The notes beneath the pieces were generated by a model that made no database searches, was not told where the DNA came from, and was given only the letters and a program-made list of their open reading frames with translations. A DNA stretch of 64,000 nt from Candidatus Frackibacter sp. WG13 (GTDB taxonomy: Bacteria; Bacillota; Halanaerobiia; Halobacteroidales; Acetohalobiaceae), in contig NZ_FOTT01000001.1 of assembly GCF_900114655.1 (NCBI RefSeq), forward strand, positions 6,973-70,972, in the 5' to 3' direction. Made by a program: the position numbers and the translations under genes. Position 1 is the stretch's first letter, and each line of letters starts with the position of its first letter. Shown one piece after another: positions 11,216-33,076 of this stretch.

Positions 11216-11490
11216 AAAAAAACCTTGCCCCTGGTCAGGGGCAAGGTTTTTTACCTCACGATACCACCCTATTTTAGAAATATTAATTTGCTAATATTAC
11301 TCCTAACAATTAATATCTCTATCTCTAAAACAGATAACGGCTGTCAACCGGTCAATCCTACTTGAATATTTTTTCAGATTGACTACTAAGAGATGATCTT
11401 CAATAAGCTTTCGATTATCAGGCTTTCACCGCCCCTGACTCGCTAAAAATCTCCTGCTTACTTACTCTTCTCTGTCATCGTAGTTAAAAT
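11216..11490 (-). promoter_or_regulatory. T-box riboswitch upstream of ileS
   Basis: On the minus strand the T-box sequence AGGGTGGTATCGTGAGGT is at 11270-11253. A GC-rich terminator (11217-11252) of CCTTGCCCCTG with CAGGGGCAAGG and a T run follows. The stem I part contains a GGCGGTGAAAGCC-like element and an ATC codon near 11395-11397 (or 11392-11394), fitting an isoleucine specifier. Uncharged tRNA-Ile is expected to stabilise the antiterminator. Confidence 0.95.
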
Positions 11491-18509: not shown

Positions 18510-19160
18510 TTATAAGCTAACTCTTTCCCCTGTTACCATATACACAATTCGTTCACAGATATTAGTAGCATGGTCAGCAATTCTTTCTAAATATCTACCA
18601 GCAAACATCAGACGAGTAGCCTGAGTAATTGTTGAAGCATCCTCCATCATATAAGTTAATAGTTCCCTTAAAATCTGGTCATTAATCCTATCTACTTCTT
18701 CATCCATTGCTGCTACTTCTTTAGCTTTCTCTATATCTAAATTAACAAACGCATCCAAACACTCTCGTACCATCTCTTGTGTAATCTTAGTCATCCGTGG
18801 AATATCTACTAATGGTTTAATTAACGGCTCATTGGCTATCTCTGTAGTAATACGAGCAATATTATAAGCATAATCACCCATTCGTTCTAAATCAGTAATT
18901 ATTTTAGAAATCATCCCAATAGTTCTAAGATCTTTAGCTACCGGTTGCTGTAAAGCAATTAGTCTAATACATTTTTTTTCGATATCAACTTCAAAATCAT
19001 CAATCGCATCATCATTTTCTTTTACTTCTTTAGCTAACTCTACATCACTCTCTGCTAACGAAGTAACTGCCTTATGAATTGCTTCTTCTACCATACTACC
19101 CATCTTTAATAGTTCTTGATTAAGCTTCTCTAGCTCTTGATCAAAGTTTTTTCTTACCAT
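18510..19160 (-). CDS. phoU: Phosphate transport system regulator PhoU
   Basis: 216 aa, all helical, with two repeats carrying the metal-binding type motif (DDAIDDFEVDIEKKCIRL and DEEVDRINDQILRELL). It modulates PstSCAB uptake and signals phosphate sufficiency to the PhoR/PhoB system. Placed last in the first pst operon, 30 bp after pstB. Confidence 0.97.
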   Translation of the reverse strand: MVRKNFDQELEKLNQELLKMGSMVEEAIHKAVTSLAESDVELAKEVKENDDAIDDFEVDIEKKCIRLIALQQPVAKDLRTIGMISKIITDLERMGDYAYNIARITTEIANEPLIKPLVDIPRMTKITQEMVRECLDAFVNLDIEKAKEVAAMDEEVDRINDQILRELLTYMMEDASTITQATRLMFAGRYLERIADHATNICERIVYMVTGERVSL

Positions 19161-19190
19161 CTACTCTCCACTCCTCTCTTCATTTATAAA

Positions 19191-19955
19191 TTATCCAAAC
19201 CGTCCAGTAATATAATCTTCTGTCCTTTGATCCTCAGGTCTTTCAAAGATTTTTTCAGTCGGTCCTGCTTCTACTATTTCCCCAGTTAAGAAAAAGGCTG
19301 TATAATCTGAAATTCTTGCTGCTTGCTGCATACTATGGGTCACAATTATAATTGTATAATTCTCCTTTAACTCTTCAACTAACTCTTCAATCTTTGCAGT
19401 AGCCACTGGATCTAAGGCTGAAGTAGGCTCATCCATCAAAATAACATCAGGATTAACTGCTAAAGCTCTAGCGATACATAACCTCTGTTGCTGACCACCA
19501 GAAATCCCAATTGCCGATTTATCCAATCTATCATGAACTTCATCCCATAAAGCCGCTCTCTTTAAACTCTTTTCCACAATATCATCTAGCTTATCTTTAT
19601 CTTTTATTCCATGAGCTTTAGGTCCATAAGCCACATTGTCATAGATAGACTTTGGAAATGGGTTAGGATCTTGAAAGACCATCCCTACTCGCTTACGAAG
19701 ACTAACTACATCTAAATCATCTTGGTATATATCTTCGTTATCGATTAATACTTTCCCCTCTACCTGTGTACCCTCAATTAAGTCGTTCATACGATTTAGT
19801 GTCCGTAAAAAAGTCGATTTCCCACAACCAGAAGGCCCAATTAAAGCAGTTACCTGATTAGCTGGTGCTTTTAGAGAAACTTTCTCTAATGCTTGAAAAT
19901 CATCATAATAAAAGTCTAAATCTTCTACTATAATCTTATGTGTACTGTTAGTCAT
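19191..19955 (-). CDS. pstB: Phosphate ABC transporter ATP-binding protein
   Basis: 254 aa. Walker [10 protein letters not shown], signature [20 protein letters not shown], Walker [14 protein letters not shown] and H-loop THSMQQ. Powers phosphate import with PstA and PstC. It is the only pstB in the window, although there are two PstSCA sets, so it may serve both. Confidence 0.98.
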
Positions 19956-19991
19956 TCTTTCTACCTCCTGCTCCCAATTAAAAATAATAAG

Positions 19992-20843
19992 TTATTTATT
20001 CTTCTTTCTTAACCAAGAACGCAACAATATAGCGATTAGATTCATAGATAATACTAAAACTATCAAGACTAAAGCAGTCCCATAAGCTAAAGGTCTCACC
20101 TTAGCTATATCATGGTGCTGAGTTGACATAATATATAAGTGATACGGCAAAGCCATAAACTGACTAGAAAGTGACTGTGGCAAAAACGGTAAGAAGAAGG
20201 CTGCCCCTGTAAATAAGATCGGTGCCGTTTCTCCTGCTGCCCTTGCTAAGCCTAAAATAGTACCGGTCAAGATTCCTGGAATCGCATACGGCAAGACATT
20301 AGTCCGAATACTATGCCACTTAGAAACTCCTAAAGCTAAAGAACCATGGCGATAAGAATTAGGCACTGCCTTTAATGCCTCTTCACTAGCTGTGATAGTT
20401 ACTGGTAAAGTCATTAAGCCTAAAGTTAAACCAGCCGATAAGATAGAAGTTCCAAAACCTAATACATTAACAAATAAAGCCAAGCCAAATAGACCATATA
20501 CAATCGATGGTACCCCAGCTAAATTTCGAATAGCCATCCGAATTAATCTCGTTATCTTTCCTTGTCTAGCATATTCATTTAAATAAATAGCTGCAAAGAC
20601 TCCTAAAGGAACTGCAACTACCGCTGTGATTACTGTTACATAAAACGTTCCAACAATTGCTGGCCAAATACCACCCTCTGTCATTCCATTCTTAGGTGCG
20701 GCAGTAATAAACTGCCAGTTAATTACTCCAATCCCTTTACTAATAATATCATATAGAATAACACCTAAAATTAGTAGGATTACTAACATTGATAACCGTA
20801 ATATATTAAAACCTATCTTCTGTTTAAGATTACTAGATTCCAT
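19992..20843 (-). CDS. pstA: Phosphate ABC transporter permease PstA (set 1)
   Basis: 283 aa with about six membrane segments and the EAA-type loop near EEALKAVPNSYRHGSLALGVSKW. Overlaps the stop of pstC by one base, so the two permeases are translationally coupled. Imports phosphate across the cytoplasmic membrane with PstC and PstB. Confidence 0.96.
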   Translation of the reverse strand: MESSNLKQKIGFNILRLSMLVILLILGVILYDIISKGIGVINWQFITAAPKNGMTEGGIWPAIVGTFYVTVITAVVAVPLGVFAAIYLNEYARQGKITRLIRMAIRNLAGVPSIVYGLFGLALFVNVLGFGTSILSAGLTLGLMTLPVTITASEEALKAVPNSYRHGSLALGVSKWHSIRTNVLPYAIPGILTGTILGLARAAGETAPILFTGAAFFLPFLPQSLSSQFMALPYHLYIMSTQHHDIAKVRPLAYGTALVLIVLVLSMNLIAILLRSWLRKKNK

Positions 20844-21736
20844 TATTCACCCTCCCCATACTTATGGAGAACTAAATCAGAGATTAAATTCACTACGAAA
20901 GTCATTAAGAATAGTACTAATCCAATCGCAAATAAAGAATAGTAGTGAGTAGTATTATAAGGAACCTCTCCTAATTCAACAGCTATAGTAGCTGTCATAG
21001 TTCTCACAGAATCAAAGATGCTTTCTGGAAAAGCTGGTGCATTTCCTGTAGCCATTAAAACCGCCATCGTTTCACCAATAGCTCGTCCCATTCCTAACAT
21101 AACTGCTGCTATAATTCCTGATAAAGCCGCGGGTAAAGTAACTGTAATTAAAGTATGCCACTCATTCGTTCCTAAAGCCAAAGACGCTTGTTTATACTCT
21201 TCTGGAACAGCAGAAATAGCATCTTCAGAAATACTAATAATCGTTGGCAAAGCCATAACACCTAATAAAATCGAACCATTAATTGCATTAAGACCATTAC
21301 TTAAATTAAAAACCTTAGCAATCATTGGTCCAACTAAAACAATTCCTAAAAACCCAATAACTACCGATGGAATTCCCGCTAATATCTCAACAGTCGGCTT
21401 TAGAATTTCTCTCATTCTAGGATGAGCCACCTCTGCTAAATAAGCAGCACAAGCTATTCCTAGCGGTACCGCAAATATTAAAGAACCAACAGTCACTAAT
21501 AAAGTACTATAAACCAAGCTTACAATCCCATAACTACGATTAGAATAAGAAGTAGGATTCCAATCAGTGGAAGTTAGGAACTCTTTAATACTAACTTCTT
21601 GGAAAGTTGGCAATCCTTCTTTTAATAATAAGGTAAAGATTCCAATTAAAATTATAATAGCTAGAATACCGTTACCGAAGAAGAACCATTCGATAGCCTT
21701 TTCTTTAAACTTCGACAATTTGCCCCGCTTCTGCAA
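20843..21736 (-). CDS. pstC: Phosphate ABC transporter permease PstC (set 1)
   Basis: 297 aa, about six membrane segments, EAA loop at EDAISAVPEEYKQASLALGTNEW. Starts 155 bp after pstS, behind an intergenic hairpin that probably lowers its expression relative to pstS. Confidence 0.96.
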   Translation of the reverse strand: MQKRGKLSKFKEKAIEWFFFGNGILAIIILIGIFTLLLKEGLPTFQEVSIKEFLTSTDWNPTSYSNRSYGIVSLVYSTLLVTVGSLIFAVPLGIACAAYLAEVAHPRMREILKPTVEILAGIPSVVIGFLGIVLVGPMIAKVFNLSNGLNAINGSILLGVMALPTIISISEDAISAVPEEYKQASLALGTNEWHTLITVTLPAALSGIIAAVMLGMGRAIGETMAVLMATGNAPAFPESIFDSVRTMTATIAVELGEVPYNTTHYYSLFAIGLVLFLMTFVVNLISDLVLHKYGEGE

Positions 21737-21763
21737 TTAAAACCCTCCTGTCAATAAATTAAC

Positions 21764-21826
21764 CAAAAAACAACCGGAGATTCCTTATGATTATTTTCGA
21801 TAAAATTTAAGAATCTCCAGTTATTT
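21764..21826 (-). terminator. Intergenic attenuator between pstS and pstC
   Basis: On the minus strand AACTGGAGATTCTTA pairs with TAAGGAATCTCCGGTT through one G-U and small offsets, followed by a T run. It probably ends most pstS transcripts, giving more binding protein than permease. Confidence 0.8.
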
Positions 21827-21891
21827 ATTATCTTCATATTTTACTCTATTTTTAACTATATTTATAATTAATGTATTAGCTAAATAGCAAC

Positions 21892-22824
21892 TTACTTACC
21901 TAAATTTTTCTCATTAATCTTTTTAAACTTAGGACTTACAGGATAGAAACCCTGTTCAACGGCAATTGCTTGTCCTTCATCACTTAACTCATACTTAATA
22001 AATTCTAATTCTTGTCCTGTTGGTACTCCATTAGTATATTGATTTAACGGTCTAGCTAGTGGATAATCTCCCGTTTTAACATTTTCTGGCTTAAGAGGAC
22101 TAGCTGGCTTTGAATTAGCATCCTTAGCTACATTAAGTATATTTAATCCCTCTATTTCTTTATCATTATCATTTACTACATAACCAATTCCCACATAACC
22201 GATTCCGGCTTCGTCTGCTTTAATTCCTTCTACAATTTGAGCGTTACCATTCATACGCTTCATATTAGCAGAATAATCACCTTTTAATACATTATTTCTA
22301 AAATAAACAAATGTTCCAGAGTTGCTTTGACGCCCATAAAGAGATATCTCTTTATCTAGCCCTCCAACCTCTTTCCAATTAGTAATTTCACCTTTGAAAA
22401 TATCACCAATCTGGTCAACCGTTAGATTTTCTACTGGATTACTTTCATGAACGATAACTGATAATCCATCCATAGCAACTACAAATCGTTTAACATCTAC
22501 TCCATTTGCTTCTGCCTGTTTAATCTCTTCTTCTTTCATCACTCGTGAAGAGTTAGCAATATCTACTTTATCATTAATTAAAGCTGCAATTCCTGTTCCG
22601 GATCCTCCTCCGGTTACAGAAAGAGAGACTCCTTCATTTTGTGCCATATACTCTTCTGCTAAGACTTGTACCATATTAACCATTGTATCAGAACCCTTAA
22701 CTTGTACATAACCTTGCTGTCCTTCTCCCTGGTTTTGAGCTCCCCCACAACCTACGAGAAATAGACCTGCCATTGTTAAAATACTTACTAAAATAATTGC
22801 TCTTTTGTTAAGTAACCTTCCCAT
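21892..22824 (-). CDS. pstS: Phosphate-binding lipoprotein PstS (set 1)
   Basis: 310 aa. A lipoprotein signal with lipobox LFLVGC places it on the outer face of the membrane. Phosphate-site motifs: VKGSDTMVN, GGGSGTGIAAL and RQSNSGTF. Delivers phosphate to PstCA. A four-repeat Pho box and a TATAAT -10 lie upstream. Confidence 0.97.
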   Translation of the reverse strand: MGRLLNKRAIILVSILTMAGLFLVGCGGAQNQGEGQQGYVQVKGSDTMVNMVQVLAEEYMAQNEGVSLSVTGGGSGTGIAALINDKVDIANSSRVMKEEEIKQAEANGVDVKRFVVAMDGLSVIVHESNPVENLTVDQIGDIFKGEITNWKEVGGLDKEISLYGRQSNSGTFVYFRNNVLKGDYSANMKRMNGNAQIVEGIKADEAGIGYVGIGYVVNDNDKEIEGLNILNVAKDANSKPASPLKPENVKTGDYPLARPLNQYTNGVPTGQELEFIKYELSDEGQAIAVEQGFYPVSPKFKKINEKNLGK

Positions 22825-22875
22825 TATCCAACCTCCTAAAATTTTGTTAATTAAGTCACATCTGTATCCACTTTT

Positions 22876-22929
22876 ATTATAACAAGCAAATGTTAAAGCT
22901 ATATTACAAGAATGTTAAATTTATGTTAA
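22876..22929 (-). promoter_or_regulatory. Pho box promoter of pstS (set 1)
   Basis: TGTTAA, TATTAC, TGTTAA and TGTTAA begin at 22891, 22902, 22913 and 22924 (plus strand), an exact 11-bp period; on the minus strand they read TTAACA-like. The -10 TATAAT is at 22881-22876, 9 bp from the last repeat. This is the layout of PhoP binding sites in Bacillus. Confidence 0.85.
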
Positions 22930-22951
22930 CAAATGTCGACTTAAGCTTTAA

Positions 22952-23662
22952 TTATCCTTCCCGGTTATAAATTAATTTATAACCGACACCTCGTACAGTC
23001 TCAATTGTTAACGCTTTAATATCATAATTGTTAAACTTTTTACGCAGCATTCTAATATGAACGTCCACTGTCCGAATACTACTTAAAGTCTCATAACCCC
23101 AAATTTTTGCTAACAATTCATCTCTTGAGCATGCTTTACCTAATTTATTAATTAAATAAGTCAGTAGACTAAACTCTTTATTTGTCATCTCTACTTCTTG
23201 TTCATCGATTAAGACCCTATACCCTTCTAAATCTAAAGTTAATCTTCCGTACTCAATAAAAGACCCCTTAAGTACTGAATTATTTAAATCTAATCTCCTA
23301 AAGATTGCTCGAACTCTAGAAGTTAATTCCCGCGGGCTAAAAGGTTTAGTTAAGTAATCTGTAGCTCCTAATTCTAACCCTCGTACTTTATTCTCTATTT
23401 CAGTCTTAGCACTCAAAAATACAATTGGAACCTTTTGTATCAGATTCTTGTCTTGTAAAAGTCTACAAATTTCAAACCCATCTAATCCCGGTAACATAAT
23501 ATCTAAAATAATTAAATCAGGAAGACCTTCTTTTAACTTTTCTAGAACCTGCTGCCCATCAGAAGCTAAAGAGACTTGATATCCATCTTGAGTTAAATTA
23601 TATTTAATTAATTCCAAAATATTCTCTTCATCATCTACTACTAGAATTTTTTCTTCACTCAT
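22952..23662 (-). CDS. OmpR/PhoB-family response regulator, likely phosphate regulator
   Basis: 236 aa. Receiver domain 1-120 with acidic pocket (VDDEEN), phospho-Asp in LIILDIMLPGLDG, and Lys in TKPFSP. C-terminal winged helix 135-232 (RTVDVHIRMLRKKF). No kinase is adjacent. Its own promoter has the same four-repeat Pho box as both pstS genes, so it probably is the PhoB/PhoP of this organism and autoregulates (inference). Confidence 0.9.
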   Translation of the reverse strand: MSEEKILVVDDEENILELIKYNLTQDGYQVSLASDGQQVLEKLKEGLPDLIILDIMLPGLDGFEICRLLQDKNLIQKVPIVFLSAKTEIENKVRGLELGATDYLTKPFSPRELTSRVRAIFRRLDLNNSVLKGSFIEYGRLTLDLEGYRVLIDEQEVEMTNKEFSLLTYLINKLGKACSRDELLAKIWGYETLSSIRTVDVHIRMLRKKFNNYDIKALTIETVRGVGYKLIYNREG

Positions 23663-23694
23663 CTATTTAACCTCCCTACCTACTTCTTAATAGA

Positions 23695-23748
23695 ATTATC
23701 TCATATTTATGTTACAAAAACTTTAGATAAATGTTAATATTCCGTTAA
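23695..23748 (-). promoter_or_regulatory. Pho box promoter of the response regulator gene
   Basis: Repeats TGTTAC, CTTTAG, TGTTAA and CGTTAA begin at 23710, 23721, 23732 and 23743. A GATAAT -10 (minus strand) lies at 23700-23695. The distance from repeats to -10 is identical to that at both pstS promoters. The second repeat is degenerate. Confidence 0.7.
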
Positions 23749-23768
23749 AATTTTAAGACATAGATAAA

Positions 23769-23793
23769 CCCAGCCTATCTATTGATAGCTGGG
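23769..23793. other. Stem-loop upstream of the Pho regulator
   Basis: CCCAG and CTATC pair with GATAG and CTGGG around TATT with one bulged base. It stands between the Pho box and the structured RNA region, without a clear T run. Confidence 0.4.
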
Positions 23794-23900
23794 CCTACCA
23801 ATCTATTTAACCTCAGGGAGGGAAGTAACTATTATCTCTTACATCTTAATCATATCAAATTTAGATTACGAAAATATTAAATAATTATTAATGATTAGAA

Positions 23901-24104
23901 CACAAAAAGGTCATATTGAGCAAATTATACATTTTTCGGTCAACATCTTGGTGAGTAGGAGCCGAAAATATGGCCGAACCACAGGACGTGGTGAGCTAAT
24001 CTCAGGACAGGACGGCCTATAGATTAGGAAGCCTTATTTTTGGCGGATACGAACCTTAGATGTTTCGAAAAATGTATTCTGCCGCGAAAGGTGACCTTTT
24101 TGTG
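23901..24104. ncRNA. Candidate structured RNA, about 204 nt
   Basis: Three nested stems close it: CACAAAAAGGTCA (23901-23913) with 24092-24104; ATACATTTTTCG (23927-23938) with 24066-24077; AACATCT (23942-23948) with 24058-24064. Inside, GCCGAAAATA (23961-23970) pairs with 24035-24044, CCAC-AGGAC-GTGG forms a hairpin (23979-23991), and CTAATCT (23996-24002) pairs with AGATTAG (24021-24027). GGCC in that last loop (24014-24017) can also pair with 23972-23975, giving a pseudoknot. AGGAC occurs three times. No ORF. GC content is above the surroundings. Strand unresolved. I do not recognise the class. Confidence 0.6.
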
Positions 24105-24169
24105 GTTGTACCATTAATATTTTGTTAACAGTTAGCTAGCTAAGACTCTTACATAATTATAAAATTCGA

Positions 24170-26488
24170 TTAACTATTAATTAAATAATTACTACCTTCA
24201 ATTTTCTTTACTTTATCCTTTAGCTGAGCTGCTAATCTACCTACTTCAAATCTTGTCTTTAAATCATAATCCTGATTAGTAATTACAGCAACAGATATAG
24301 TCGGTTGATGCAAAAGTAAAGCTTGATTCTGTGAAGTATTGACTGAAGATCTAGTTGTTAAGTTTTCATTAACCATTAATTCTTGAGCAACTTCTCTTTC
24401 ATAACGTTTAATTATTCTTTTAGATAATTCTTCTCCCTTCTTAGGAGTCGTTACTATTAAGAAGTCATCACCACCAATATGACCTATAAAATCTTCACCA
24501 TCAGCTACTTCGTTTAAAATATTAGCTGTTAATTTAATTAATTGATCTCCGTTTTCAAAACCATAATGATCATTAAAAGCTTTAAAATTATCAAGGTCGA
24601 TATAAAGTATGGCAAATGGTTGTTTTTTCTTTAAAATCTTATCTAATCGTTGTTGAATTAAAGTATTACCTGGCAGCCCAGTTAATGGATTTAAATTTTG
24701 TGCTATATCTACTTGTAATTTTGTCATACTCTCCAGTAACCTTCTTACTGATAAAGTACCTATATATTTCTCATCTTTAGTCACTATAATATAATGATAC
24801 AGTTTATTTTCATCTCTACTCATAGCCTTTTTAGAAACTCGTTCAATTGAATCATTGGCTTCTACAATTAATGGATGCTTATCCATTACTGATTTAATAG
24901 GCTTTTTTATAAATAATGAAACACCAAATCTCTTACCTAAACGATAATACAGCTCATCTTTCATTACTAAACCAATAGGATAATCCTTTTCATCAACAAT
25001 TACTATTCCATTTAAATAGGGATCTTCTTCAAAATATTTCACTGCCTCTTCTACCAAATCTTCTTTCTGTAAAGTAGCATCATGTCGAACAATATCTTCT
25101 ATATTTAACTCATTAATACTGAATCTACTTTCTAATCTATTATTCTTCCAAGTAATAAATCTTCTTAATTTATCAGTTATCGGTTCAGGATGTCCTACAG
25201 GATGTTGAATTAAATAACCTTGACCATAATCTACGCCTAATTCGATTAATTTCTCCAATTCATCGTAAGTTTCTATCCCTTCAGCTACCACTTTAGTATT
25301 AACTTGATGAGCAAAATCAATTAGTGCTCTTATTAAAGCCTCTTTAGTGGAATTTAAATTAATATTTCTAATTAATGACATATCTAATTTAATATATTGG
25401 GGGTGTAATTTAGATATAGTCTGTAGGTTAGCATATCCACTTCCTACATCATCTACTGCTATCTGATAGCCTTGTTCATAATAATGCTTAAGTGTCTTAT
25501 GGAAAATATCAAAATTATTAATAGCCGTCTTTTCAGTAATTTCAAAAATTATATTCTGCTTCTCGATCCCTAACTTAGAAATTATCTCCTGAGTAACACC
25601 TTTTTTAAAATCATTTGCTTCGATTACTTCTGGACTAACATTTAAAGATAGTTTCTTCCCTGCTAAAAATGATTCTGCCTTCACTAAAGCTTGTTTACGA
25701 CAAAGTCGTTCTAAGTCTAATAATAGATTCGTTTCTTTGGCAAAATCAAATAATTGATCTGGTCTCTCAAAGTAACTATCTTTAGGACCACGAGTCAAAG
25801 CTTCATACCCAACTATTTCTCCTGACTGCAAAGAAATTAAAGGCTGAAATAAGATTCTTATTTCCTCATTAGCAATTATTTCAGCTAAAATATCTCTTTT
25901 GCGTCGCCATTTATTATATTCTTTATCTTTAGCTACTTGTGCTGCTTCTTTAATTGTTTTATAGACTGAATTTTCTACTCTTTTTACTTTTTTACCTACA
26001 ATTACTGCATGACCTAAATGTAAATCTAAGACTTCTTGAACATGAAGTTGCTTATTTAACCTAGTTACTACTGCAGATTTAATACGATTAGCTATAACTA
26101 TCAATTCTTTTTCTGCCCTCAAAAATTCATCATCTAATCCCGCTAGAAAAATAACGAAATCATCTCCACCCTGATTACTAATCCCTATCTTGTCTTCTTT
26201 CCTCAATGTATTTGTAGATATATTTCGTAAAATTTTACTTAAACTAGCTAATATCTTTTCACAGATTTCTTCGCCATATTCTAATTCAATTTGACTAAAG
26301 TCAACAATATCTAAATAAATAACCCCAATATTTTTCTCTTCTTCTTTCAAATACTTACGTAATTGACCATAAAATGCAGGAATCACGGGAAAACCTGTTA
26401 ATTCATTAGTTAAACTTTTTTGTGAACAGACACAAACTTCATCATCTAGGAACCACTTTAATATATTTTTGGTTCTATTTAACATCAC
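24170..26488 (-). CDS. GGDEF-EAL-CBS-GGDEF cyclic di-GMP protein
   Basis: 772 aa. Order: a first GGDEF-type domain (residues 30-195, site GGDDF), an EAL domain (205-445, starting FQPLISLQSGEIVGYEALTR, with DDVGSGYANL), two CBS-like motifs (about 455-580), and a second GGDEF domain (590-765, LTGLPGN start, GHIGGDDF site). Both active-site loops are GGDDF, an allowed variant. The EAL signature residues look intact. It makes or breaks c-di-GMP, perhaps gated by nucleotide binding to the CBS pair. No membrane segment. Confidence 0.9.
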   Translation of the reverse strand: MMLNRTKNILKWFLDDEVCVCSQKSLTNELTGFPVIPAFYGQLRKYLKEEEKNIGVIYLDIVDFSQIELEYGEEICEKILASLSKILRNISTNTLRKEDKIGISNQGGDDFVIFLAGLDDEFLRAEKELIVIANRIKSAVVTRLNKQLHVQEVLDLHLGHAVIVGKKVKRVENSVYKTIKEAAQVAKDKEYNKWRRKRDILAEIIANEEIRILFQPLISLQSGEIVGYEALTRGPKDSYFERPDQLFDFAKETNLLLDLERLCRKQALVKAESFLAGKKLSLNVSPEVIEANDFKKGVTQEIISKLGIEKQNIIFEITEKTAINNFDIFHKTLKHYYEQGYQIAVDDVGSGYANLQTISKLHPQYIKLDMSLIRNINLNSTKEALIRALIDFAHQVNTKVVAEGIETYDELEKLIELGVDYGQGYLIQHPVGHPEPITDKLRRFITWKNNRLESRFSINELNIEDIVRHDATLQKEDLVEEAVKYFEEDPYLNGIVIVDEKDYPIGLVMKDELYYRLGKRFGVSLFIKKPIKSVMDKHPLIVEANDSIERVSKKAMSRDENKLYHYIIVTKDEKYIGTLSVRRLLESMTKLQVDIAQNLNPLTGLPGNTLIQQRLDKILKKKQPFAILYIDLDNFKAFNDHYGFENGDQLIKLTANILNEVADGEDFIGHIGGDDFLIVTTPKKGEELSKRIIKRYEREVAQELMVNENLTTRSSVNTSQNQALLLHQPTISVAVITNQDYDLKTRFEVGRLAAQLKDKVKKIEGSNYLINS

Positions 26489-26528
26489 TTGTGCCTCCTA
26501 ATCTCTTAGATTTATCTAATCGCCTCTA

Positions 26529-26624
26529 TTAAAGATTGAATTCTTGAATTAATTCATTCAAATTGTCAGCCATTTTAACTAATTTATTTGCTAATATAGT
26601 AACTTCTTGTGAAATAAAAGTCAC
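26529..26624 (-). CDS. 31-aa ORF resembling the C-terminal tail of a chemotaxis receptor
   Basis: GTG at 26624 with GGAAGGAG upstream. The peptide reads helical, with LVKMADNLNELIQEF near the end, like the conserved C-terminal helix of methyl-accepting chemotaxis proteins. There is no upstream receptor coding sequence in this frame. Either a small ORF or the leftover 3' end of a deleted receptor gene between pstA2 and the GGDEF-EAL gene. Confidence 0.35.
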   Translation of the reverse strand: MTFISQEVTILANKLVKMADNLNELIQEFNL

Positions 26625-26670
26625 TACTATGGTCTCCTTCCCACTTTGAAATGACCTTTAATATTTAATT

Positions 26671-27579
26671 TTATCGTTGATATTTATTTCTTAAAAAGAT
26701 TGCAAATCCATTAGTTGATAATAGTATGACTAATAAGACAATAATTCCTGCTGCTGCAACATTTTGAAACTCAGCCTGTGGTCTTGAAACCCAATTGAAA
26801 ATTTGGATCGGTAATACTGTGAAAGTATCCATAGGACCTCGAGGTAAGAAAGGTACATAACCTACTGCTCCTACCAAAATCAATGGTGCCGCTTCACCCA
26901 TTGCTCTTGAAACAGCTAAGATAACACCCGTAAATATTCCTGGTGCCGCATATGGTAAGATAATTCCTTTAATCACTTGCCATCTTGTTGCTCCTAAAGC
27001 ATAAGCTCCTTCTTTAATATTGCTCGGCACTGACCTAATTGCTTCCTGAGCAGCAACAATAATTACCGGCAAGATAAGTAGACTCAAAGTAGCTGCTCCT
27101 GCTAATATACTCCTCCCAAAACCTAAAAATTCAACAAATACTGCTAACCCTAACATACCATAAACAACCGAAGGAACACCAGCCAAATTAGCTATATTTA
27201 ATTTTAAAATTCGAAAAAACCAAGAATTTTTATCCGCATACTCTTCCAAATAGATGGCAGTTCCTACACCTAATGGAAATGAAATTAATGTAACAAGTCC
27301 AATAACCCAGATGCTACCAACAAGCGCTGACTTAAGCCCTGCATTTTTAGGAAAACGAGAAGGAAAACTATTAATAAAGTCTGCATCTAACCAACTAAAT
27401 CCTGTCCGGAAGACATCAAATAACAAGATTACTAGCACAACAACTCCAAAAATTGTACATAAAAATAGAATCTTTTCAAATAACATTCCTTTTAATCTTC
27501 TTCGTTTTTCTGATTTATCTATCTGAAACTTAGTTATATTTGGTTCATCAACTTGTTTTTGTTTTATTTGCTCTTCCAT
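26671..27579 (-). CDS. pstA: Phosphate ABC transporter permease PstA (set 2)
   Basis: 302 aa; polar head of 30 residues, then about six membrane segments, with EEAA-type loop AQEAIRSVPSNIKEGAYALGATRW. Its start overlaps the stop of pstC2. No pstB follows; the next gene is the MCP-like fragment and the GGDEF-EAL protein, so the ATPase is probably supplied from 19191. Confidence 0.93.
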   Translation of the reverse strand: MEEQIKQKQVDEPNITKFQIDKSEKRRRLKGMLFEKILFLCTIFGVVVLVILLFDVFRTGFSWLDADFINSFPSRFPKNAGLKSALVGSIWVIGLVTLISFPLGVGTAIYLEEYADKNSWFFRILKLNIANLAGVPSVVYGMLGLAVFVEFLGFGRSILAGAATLSLLILPVIIVAAQEAIRSVPSNIKEGAYALGATRWQVIKGIILPYAAPGIFTGVILAVSRAMGEAAPLILVGAVGYVPFLPRGPMDTFTVLPIQIFNWVSRPQAEFQNVAAAGIIVLLVILLSTNGFAIFLRNKYQR

Positions 27580-28478
27580 TAATACCCCTCCTCATGAGCC
27601 TGCACAATTAACTTGGCAAATAGATTCATAATTAAAGTCATAACAAAGAGTAAGGCACCAACGACAAAAAGTGTTTTATATTCAATCGTTCCTCTAGGAG
27701 TTTCCCCTAAACTAGCATTAACCATAAAACCAGTCATCGTCTGTATACTCTGTAATGGATTTAAATTTAGTTCACTACTAGCCCCCGCAGCAATAGCAAC
27801 AATCATGGTTTCACCAATAGCCCGCGAAATCCCTAGAATAAATGAAGATATAATCCCCGAAAATGCCGCTGGAATAACAGTCTTAACTACCACTTGAAAC
27901 TTAGTAGCTCCCAAAGCATACGCCCCATGGCGAATAGAATCAGGAACCGAACGCATAGCATCTTCACTTAAAGAAGCAACCATCGGAATAATCATAATTC
28001 CTACGGCAATGCTTGCACTCGCTGCATTAAATACTCCAGTCTGAGGAAGTATCTTTTGAATTAAAGGAGTAATAAAGGTTAAAGCAAAAAAACCATATAC
28101 AACCGAAGGAATCCCAGCTAGAATCTCTAATATCGGTTTAATAACCTTACTCCATTCCTTAGAAGCATACTCACTTAAATAGATTGCACTTCCTAATCCA
28201 ATAGGGATAGAAATAATACTCGAACCAACAGCAATCATTAATGTTCCTACCACTAAAGGTAGAATTCCGAAACTTCTTGGTTTAATCATTGGAGCCCAAG
28301 TAGCACTAGTAAAAAATTCAATAATAGATACTTCATTAAAAAAGGCAAAAGTTTCTTTAAATAAGATTATAATAATGCCTAATGTTGTTAAAATAGAAAC
28401 AGATGCAAAAAATCGAAGAATCCATTTTATTATTTCTTCTTTTGCATATAATAAACTCTTATCTTGTGAATTGAGCAA
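27579..28478 (-). CDS. pstC: Phosphate ABC transporter permease PstC (set 2)
   Basis: 299 aa, about six membrane segments, loop motif EDAMRSVPDSIRHGAYALGATKF. Arranged after pstS2 with an 83-bp gap that holds a stem-loop. More like PstC from extremophile-type pst operons than like set 1, by eye only. Confidence 0.93.
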   Translation of the reverse strand: MLNSQDKSLLYAKEEIIKWILRFFASVSILTTLGIIIILFKETFAFFNEVSIIEFFTSATWAPMIKPRSFGILPLVVGTLMIAVGSSIISIPIGLGSAIYLSEYASKEWSKVIKPILEILAGIPSVVYGFFALTFITPLIQKILPQTGVFNAASASIAVGIMIIPMVASLSEDAMRSVPDSIRHGAYALGATKFQVVVKTVIPAAFSGIISSFILGISRAIGETMIVAIAAGASSELNLNPLQSIQTMTGFMVNASLGETPRGTIEYKTLFVVGALLFVMTLIMNLFAKLIVQAHEEGY

Positions 28479-28510
28479 TTAAATTCCTCCCTCTCAAATT
28501 AATTCAATTA

Positions 28511-28556
28511 TATATACATAAGCGCCCCCAATCTTTGGAAGGCGCCTACATATACA
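28511..28556 (-). other. Intergenic stem-loop between pstS2 and pstC2
   Basis: On the minus strand TATATGTAGGCGCC pairs with GGCGCTTATGTATATA with small offsets. No T run. Likely a processing or stabilising element that favours pstS2 mRNA, the counterpart of the attenuator in set 1. Confidence 0.55.
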
Positions 28557-28561
28557 GTATG

Positions 28562-29527
28562 TTATTGGGTTATTGACTCTATATTTTTAAGTTGTTCTTG
28601 ATACTTGCTACTTGATAAGGGAACATACCCTACTTGTGGCACGATTACTTTTGCATTATTTAAATAAAATTTTACAAACTTCTCTACTGCTGGTCTCTTT
28701 AAAGATGCTTGATTGAGATAAAAGAATAGTGGTCTTGCTAATGGTTTATAAGTCCCATTGCCAATAGTCTCCATTGAAGGTTTAACTGGACCATTACCAC
28801 TATCTATTCCTACAACATTTAATTTATCTTTATTCTCTTCATAATAAGCATAGCCAAAGTAACCTAAAGCATACTTGTTCCCGGCAATTCCTTGTACTAA
28901 TACATTATCATTTTCACTTGGTGTATAGTCAGTCCGACTAGCGCCCTCTTCGCCAACGATTGCCTCAGTAAAGTAATCAAAAGTTCCAGAATCAGCTCCA
29001 GGTCCATATAGGTCTATCTTCTTATCCGGCCATGAAGGTCGAATGTCACTCCAAGTTTCAACATTACTTCCTGGCTGCCAAAGTTTACGTAATTCATCTA
29101 CAGTCATACTTTTAGCCCATGTGTTCTCCGGATTAACAACTACAGAAATTCCATCATAAGCTACCGTTACGGGAATAGATTCAATACCATTCTGCTCTGC
29201 TAACTTACGTTCTTCGGGTTTAATTCGTCGTGAAGCATCATTAATATCAGTCTCACCTACTACATACTTCTCAAATCCACCACCAGTTCCAGATACCCCA
29301 ACAGAAACTCGTACATCTGGATACGGCTTTCTAAACTCTTCTGCGATTGCTGCTGTAATCGGATAAACAGTGGAAGAACCATCTATTTTAACTTCTCCTG
29401 ATACTGTATCCCCTTTCTTATCATCACCAAAGATCCACCACGCATCTGCTTGTCCAGTCGCAGCAAATACAACTCCCACCGCTAAGAATAATACTAAAGT
29501 TAATGCAATTCCTTTCTTTTTAAACAT
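28562..29527 (-). CDS. pstS: Phosphate-binding protein PstS (set 2)
   Basis: 321 aa. Cleavable signal peptide (hydrophobic residues 8-24, ATGQADA cleavage region) but no lipobox Cys, unlike set 1. Motifs IDGSSTVYPIT, GVSGTGGGFEKY and GPGADSGTFDYF fit phosphate binding. How it stays at the cell surface is unclear without a lipid anchor. A Pho box promoter lies upstream. Confidence 0.93.
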   Translation of the reverse strand: MFKKKGIALTLVLFLAVGVVFAATGQADAWWIFGDDKKGDTVSGEVKIDGSSTVYPITAAIAEEFRKPYPDVRVSVGVSGTGGGFEKYVVGETDINDASRRIKPEERKLAEQNGIESIPVTVAYDGISVVVNPENTWAKSMTVDELRKLWQPGSNVETWSDIRPSWPDKKIDLYGPGADSGTFDYFTEAIVGEEGASRTDYTPSENDNVLVQGIAGNKYALGYFGYAYYEENKDKLNVVGIDSGNGPVKPSMETIGNGTYKPLARPLFFYLNQASLKRPAVEKFVKFYLNNAKVIVPQVGYVPLSSSKYQEQLKNIESITQ

Positions 29528-32829: not shown

Positions 32830-32960
32830 AAAATAGGAAATACTCCTTACTGAAAAGGAGCATAGATATACCATGATATCTCCTTTCCAAGTAGGGAGGC
32901 ATAATCCTTTCGAATTATACCCTATCGCATTTAAGATACCATAGCCATTAAATTCTTTAG
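32830..32960 (-). promoter_or_regulatory. Structured leader of the tungstate operon; possible molybdenum/tungsten cofactor-type element
   Basis: Minus-strand leader with GCCTCCC (32901-32895) and GGAAAGGAG (32890-32882), plus hairpin CTCCTTTTC-AGT-AAGGAG near the start. These short strings recall the Moco RNA motif, but I cannot align its full core, so the identity is tentative. Function would be cofactor-responsive control of oxyanion import. Confidence 0.3.
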
Positions 32961-33076
32961 GTTATCTTAATTCGAAGATAAATAAAGTAAGTGCTATTTA
33001 TTTTTTAATTATTAACTCAATTACTATTATAAAACATTTCAAATACATCGTCAAGATATGTCGAAAAATATCTTTT

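Follow-up and report, generated by a model that had tools for sequence, protein, structure and literature searches.

The Locus and Its Neighborhood

The window analyzed here is a 64,000-nt stretch of the genome of Candidatus Frackibacter sp. WG13 (contig NZ_FOTT01000001.1). Two phosphate-transport-like gene sets (a binding protein and two permeases) flank a gene for an EAL/GGDEF protein and a response regulator gene within positions 18510-29527. Elsewhere in the window, a T-box leader (11234-11487, minus strand) and a molybdenum/tungsten cofactor riboswitch (32865-32989, minus strand) score above their Rfam cut-offs. Between the EAL/GGDEF and response regulator genes, a 204-nt stretch (23901-24104) had been predicted to form an unassigned structured RNA, and the sequence does contain the nested stems and inner hairpins ascribed to it, together with the three AGGAC motifs. 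The fold is real, but the unit that carries it is 222 nt long, and the predicted limits cut 9 nt from each of its ends. The features of this unit are collected in Table 1.

Table 1. Features of the element in the window
Feature	Positions	Strand	Basis or remark
Left TTAA target-site duplication	23888..23891		Identical to 24114-24117
Complete 222-bp mobile element, MITE type	23892..24113	+	Copies share their ends and differ in their flanks
Left terminal inverted repeat TGATTAGAACACAAAAAGGT	23892..23911	+	Found in full and deleted copies
Conserved structured core, 151 nt	23927..24077	+	Basis of covariance model R1
Hairpin 1, loop AGGAC at 23983-23987	23978..23992	+	Loop survey of 102 copies
Weak Bacillaceae-1 (RF01690) match, whole model	23978..24039	-	20.9 bits; cut-off, 35 bits
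Hairpin 2, loop AGGAC at 24009-24013	23996..24027	+	Loop survey of 102 copies
Right terminal inverted repeat TGGTACAACCACAAAAAGGT, read inwards	24094..24113	-	Copy alignment
Right TTAA target-site duplication	24114..24117		Identical to 23888-23891

A Mobile Element with Many Copies

The host genome (G000) contains nine full-length copies of the element, with 88 to 100% identity to the window copy, plus many partial ones, and three further 222-bp copies are found in genome G025. Most copies in the alignment carry the ends TGATTAGAACACAAAAAGG...CCTTTTTGTGGTTRTACCA, and divergence begins immediately outside them. Exact duplications of 4 to 5 bp flank 8 of these 12 full copies, as the TTAA duplication does in the window, whereas pairing the left and right flanks of different copies gave exact duplications of at least 4 bp in only 6 of 132 combinations. 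Shortened and extended derivatives in the host genome, ranging from 42 to 336 bp, likewise show exact duplications of 4 to 6 bp in six of seven cases. Three host derivatives have in common a module of approximately 55 bp (TTTCGCTACAAGCACTCCGTATTGAAACAAAACGTACAAGAACAGTTTAAGTTTGTA) that is absent from the 222-bp form.

The element is short, noncoding, and multicopy, its copies have common ends, and it is bounded by inverted repeats and target-site duplications. It represents a single copy of a nonautonomous, MITE-type transposable element and not a lone RNA gene. The original prediction had itself named copies flanked by target duplications (a MITE) as the finding that would count against it, and this is what the genome holds.

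A Candidate IS1182-Related Partner

The left end of an IS1182-related element occurs at two sites in the host genome, on contigs C1 and C41. Both copies are broken by contig ends, as is expected for a multicopy element, and the host transposase gene is cut in this way. The end of the transposase-bearing element (TGATTCCAACACAAAAAG) shares 16 of its first 18 bases with the end of the short element and differs at 2. Complete IS1182-related relatives with ends such as TGATTGTACCACAAAAA are present in G056. A strict end pattern had no matches among genome contigs, and a degenerate pattern recovered 15 stretches, of which Halanaerobiaceae or Halobacteroidaceae bins contributed 10. In a bin of uncultured Clostridia, the degenerate pattern also located an end that directly precedes a transposase gene; this transposase matches the IS1182 family model with an E value of 4.5e-41, yet falls under the equivalog cut-off. 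In G025, a one-contig assembly that carries copies, no such transposase was found at E <= 1e-10. The classical IS1182 elements of G019 were considered as a partner and rejected, as their ends differ. A search of plasmids, phages, and viral contigs gave no convincing copies. An IS1182-related transposase would move the element in trans.

At C41:28100-30450 of the host genome, the IS1182-related element seems to be inserted into another transposase-like gene, a 348-amino-acid open reading frame that by eye we take to be UPF0236/ISLre2-like. Genomes G049, G050, G056, and G029 hold other short elements with similar CACAAAAAGGT ends and different interiors that lack GGA hairpins, and a single genome can hold several kinds of such short elements.

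Ordinary MITEs are the decaying remains of an insertion sequence. The element resembles IS1182-related MITEs in its inverted ends, short target duplications, noncoding nature, and the presence in the same genome of a transposase-bearing element with similar ends. Unlike ordinary MITEs, however, its interior is unrelated to the insertion sequence, is conserved across families of the class, and shows strong covariation. The bcr1 repeats of the Bacillus cereus group are also short mobile repeats with a conserved secondary structure, a likeness at the level of general description.

Conserved Fold of the Interior

The predicted 204 nt fold on the plus strand at -83.1 kcal/mol (z score of -8.0) and on the minus strand at -74.2 kcal/mol (z score of -9.4), and neither value was reached by any of 200 shuffled sequences. 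Among the 12 full copies of the same length, whose alignment is nearly gapless, 99.2% of the cells pair, and double changes occur in 16 of 71 pairs, compared with at most 3 pairs when the partners were slid as a control. In 30 diverse copies, 94.9% of the cells pair, and compensatory changes are found in 41 of 53 pairs, amounting to 315 cells and exceeding all 500 shuffles; this larger alignment was fitted to R1 and so leans towards the model, and the 12-copy alignment agrees with it. Arm-to-arm correction of palindromes can yield compensatory changes in the absence of selection, but it does not account for the conserved tips and internal loops. The interior fold is very likely under selection.

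The covariation check put forward with the original prediction, in which a lack of covariation would have spoken against a structured RNA, returned very strong covariation instead. The suggested pseudoknot found no support. Two of the three AGGAC motifs are conserved hairpin loops, but the third (24004-24008) is a stem segment that covaries with its partner and is not itself conserved.

GGA Loops and the Likely RNA Strand

In a survey of 102 copies from across the class, the loop of hairpin 1 contains GGA in 87 copies, CGA in 13, and another sequence in 2, and the loop of hairpin 2 contains GGA in 101. Any of the four bases can follow GGA, and this variation provides an internal control. In some homologues the loop is extended to six bases (ACGGAU, AUGGAU, or AGGGAU), but the GGA is kept. 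Most copies have GGA at both tips, and paired GGA hairpin loops are a feature of CsrA-binding RNAs.

Several observations concern the strand. The plus-strand fold is lower in energy than the minus-strand fold in every copy, helix mismatches on the plus strand are A.G in 36 cells against C.U in 4, and several symmetric internal loops are purine-on-purine on that strand. A count of G.U against A.C pairs initially gave 9 to 1, but this was biased by use of the plus-strand fold; with the pairs of both folds it became 8 to 6, which favors neither strand clearly. The plus strand is probably the one that functions as RNA. No internal promoter-like site starts inside the window copy, and both genes that flank it read on the minus strand.

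Distribution across the Class

Of the 59 genomes of the class, 17 were positive for the family with covariance model R1. The E values were approximately 1e-34 or lower outside the seed genomes, and G019 and G043 each gave at least 52 matches. The palindromic nature of the core means that R1 also scores 31 to 52 bits on the wrong strand, and weak matches were therefore judged by reading the sequences and not by score alone. In two of the 17 genomes (G003 and G009), the stem is kept but the GGA hairpins are not.

None of the 102 surveyed copies was called inside an open reading frame, and both orientations occur. These copies are not independent, as G019 contributes 35 of them and G043 another 27. 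The neighbors are codirectional in 77 of the 99 copies with two called neighbors, and the element lies at a median distance of 57 nt from the stop codon of the upstream gene. An orientation bias relative to the flanking genes, apparent in 45 copies (24 versus 10), faded in the full set (44 versus 33) and was rejected; the ratio of 28 to 7 in low-copy genomes only was obtained post hoc and is not used as evidence.

Two repeat arrangements were seen in passing. In G019 (C1:1941000-1981000), C-terminal fragments of Rhs/YD-repeat proteins follow one another at intervals of approximately 2 kb, and many of the gaps between them contain a copy of the element, with these copies oriented alike. The arrangement looks like a segmental duplication that carried the element along. 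G001 contains another repeat family with two AGGAC-tipped hairpins, which R1 did not detect and which matches Bacillaceae-1 below the cut-off at four places.

Probable Kinship with TwoAYGGAY and Resemblance to Bacillaceae-1

The Rfam search suggested with the original prediction gave no match on the element at gathering thresholds. TwoAYGGAY (RF01731) is not listed for the window copy even up to an E value of 10 and has no match anywhere in the host genome. The description as unassigned holds for the window copy, which falls below every Rfam cut-off, but its family is linked to TwoAYGGAY through a homologue. A single copy in G019 (C1:3463418-3463572), which with 131 bits to R1 is a clear homologue, matches the full TwoAYGGAY model on the same strand with 51.7 bits, above the cut-off of 43. 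Copies in G037 and G028 give full-length TwoAYGGAY matches near 30 bits. The loops of the family are mostly AGGAN rather than AYGGAY, with AUGGAU found in G036 and G053.

Like TwoAYGGAY, which belongs to clan CL00106, the element has a long interrupted stem and two adjoining GGA hairpins in a similar order and of similar size. Unlike TwoAYGGAY, its loops are mostly of five bases, and it has IS1182-like ends with target duplications. We consider it highly probable that the two are akin. Rfam classes TwoAYGGAY as cis-regulatory and not as mobile. In an Agathobacter rectalis record (NZ_CP143948.1), four full TwoAYGGAY copies and a fragment lie within 250 kb, so that TwoAYGGAY behaves as a dispersed intergenic repeat there too. 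We saw no IS1182-like ends with target duplications on these A. rectalis copies, whose ends differ. Their outer stems are near-perfect palindromes of approximately 40 bp, and the sequence of these stems is almost wholly different between copies. The A. rectalis record is labeled as a plasmid, yet has ribosomal protein and RNA polymerase genes.

At a permissive Rfam threshold, Bacillaceae-1 is the best match of the window copy by E value, and the other copies of the host genome score 24 to 29 bits against it, all under the cut-off of 35. Bacillaceae-1 is characterized by two RUCCU terminal loops, and the tips of the element on the minus strand read GUCCU. The reverse complement of Bacillaceae-1 resembles the element in its two hairpins in the same order, its AGGAY tips, and a similar linker and tail, a kinship that is seen at the tip only. 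In Bacillus velezensis (NZ_CP059498.1, positions 512-577 of the stretch examined), Bacillaceae-1 scores 59 bits in the 16S-23S rRNA spacer, where the rRNA sense corresponds to the UCCU strand, opposite to the GGA sense. This record is also labeled as a plasmid, yet holds rRNA genes. A match to the CsrA-binding motif has been reported both for TwoAYGGAY and for Bacillaceae-1 read in reverse complement, and both were proposed to bind CsrA; according to the same paper, the discoverers of Bacillaceae-1 were not confident of its strand (PMC4333381).

CsrA in the Host and Its Relatives

The host encodes CsrA on contig C22 (34179-34334), with L4 and R44 intact, and the gene adjoins what by eye we take to be fliW and flagellin genes. 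Among the 15 genomes that carry GGA-loop elements, 14 have csrA, compared with 27 of the 44 others (Fisher p = 0.024, with phylogeny ignored). The exception is G021, whose elements have GGA in hairpin 2 and in whose 95% complete draft no csrA was found. No csrA was found in G049, G050, and G056, in which elements with the same ends lack GGA hairpins, a small but consistent contrast.

In Bacillus subtilis, CsrA represses hag via its leader. The flagellin leader of the host, also on C22, contains a perfect GGA hairpin (CAACACGGATGTTG / TTTTTCAACACGGATGTTGAAAAA) just upstream of the ribosome-binding site and a short distance from the start codon, and corresponding hairpins are found in the flagellin leaders of G004 (CAATAAGGATGTTG) and G006 (CAACAAGGATGTTG). 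The host hairpin is likely a CsrA target. GGA hairpin loops that carry the CsrA motif have been described previously (PMC4383904). With the decoy RNAs CsrB, CsrC, and RsmX/Y/Z, the element has in common a structured form and paired GGA hairpin loops; unlike them, it has two loops per unit distributed over many mobile copies and no sequence relation.

Given the conservation of the GGA loops, the co-occurrence with csrA, and the flagellin-leader hairpins, CsrA binding is the one hypothesis that best accounts for these loops. The guess that a hairpin of the element recalls a CsrA site thus gains support, also from the published proposal for the two Rfam families (PMC4333381), but the CGA in hairpin 1 of 13 of the 102 copies and the failure to find csrA in G021 count against it. 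The chance that the GGA loops bind CsrA is close to even, if slightly short of it, and an effect of the element on the physiological pool of CsrA is doubtful.

Alternative Explanations

The place of the window copy, between the EAL/GGDEF gene and a response regulator gene that adjoins phosphate transport genes, had pointed to a single regulatory RNA gene tied to c-di-GMP and phosphate. This reading is refuted by the many copies with target duplications elsewhere; they sit between many different genes, and the feature is therefore not a lone sRNA gene with such ties, a reading to which we assign virtually no probability. A second alternative is a purely DNA-level MITE. Its fold would act as a cruciform or single-stranded hairpin in replication or transposition, and the GGA loops would mark it for a transposition protein or a host protein without any functional RNA. 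The ends and target duplications agree with this, as do the good folding of both strands and the absence of an internal promoter-like site, and arm-to-arm correction alone could have given the compensatory changes. However, derivatives of 42 to 96 bp without the GGA core keep intact ends and target duplications of their own, and movement may thus not require the core, provided that these derivatives did not lose it once they had inserted. The conservation of asymmetric internal loops and GGA tips is also unlike the outcome of arm correction, and the purine-purine mismatches favor one strand. We regard a function confined to DNA as rather unlikely.

The codirectional neighbors and the short distance to the upstream stop codon would suit an mRNA 3'-end element, that is, a terminator or anti-decay hairpin retained between codirectional genes, in which the loops are of little importance. 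Yet the GGA loops are conserved while the stems vary, the U runs are part of the stem, and a terminator scan finds none; codirectional spacing is common anyway, and purifying selection leaves intergenic insertions. Such a role is improbable. It is very improbable that the GGA or UCCU loops pair with rRNA or Shine-Dalgarno sites and act on translation without CsrA. AGGA resembles the Shine-Dalgarno core, and Bacillaceae-1 lies in a Bacillus rRNA operon with the UCCU strand in the rRNA sense, but the five- and six-base loops, their varied flanks, and the likeness to the flagellin leaders fit CsrA better.

Interpretation and Implications

The best explanation is that the element is a transposable, TwoAYGGAY-like candidate CsrA-binding RNA, a composite reading that we hold to be about evenly balanced between right and wrong. 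Its mobility and its fold have good support, whereas we infer that it is transcribed and that it binds CsrA. Besides the points raised above on CsrA, the minus-strand neighbors of the window copy, its lack of a promoter-like site, the UCCU sense of Bacillaceae-1 in Bacillus, and the presence of copies in G025 without this transposase at E <= 1e-10 count against the reading. Transcription of the plus strand would come from read-through or start at a promoter still to be recognized, and the pair of GGA loops in the resulting RNA would bind a CsrA dimer. The dispersed copies may in this way serve as decoys for CsrA or furnish host transcripts with CsrA sites. More broadly, and only tentatively, a high-copy mobile element may be spreading CsrA-binding hairpins across the class, with transposition setting the decoy pool or CsrA control and with TwoAYGGAY as one branch of this type of mobile repeat. 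Our literature search found no paper that ties CsrA sites to a MITE.

The element joins MITEs, which are seen as inert leftovers, with GGA-hairpin RNAs that lack a known function. It supplies more than 100 natural variants with conserved tips and opens the published CsrA hypothesis on two orphan Rfam families to testing. It also serves as a warning that such families can be mobile repeats and not sRNA genes. If CsrA does bind these hairpins, transposition would be a route to rewiring a global regulon.
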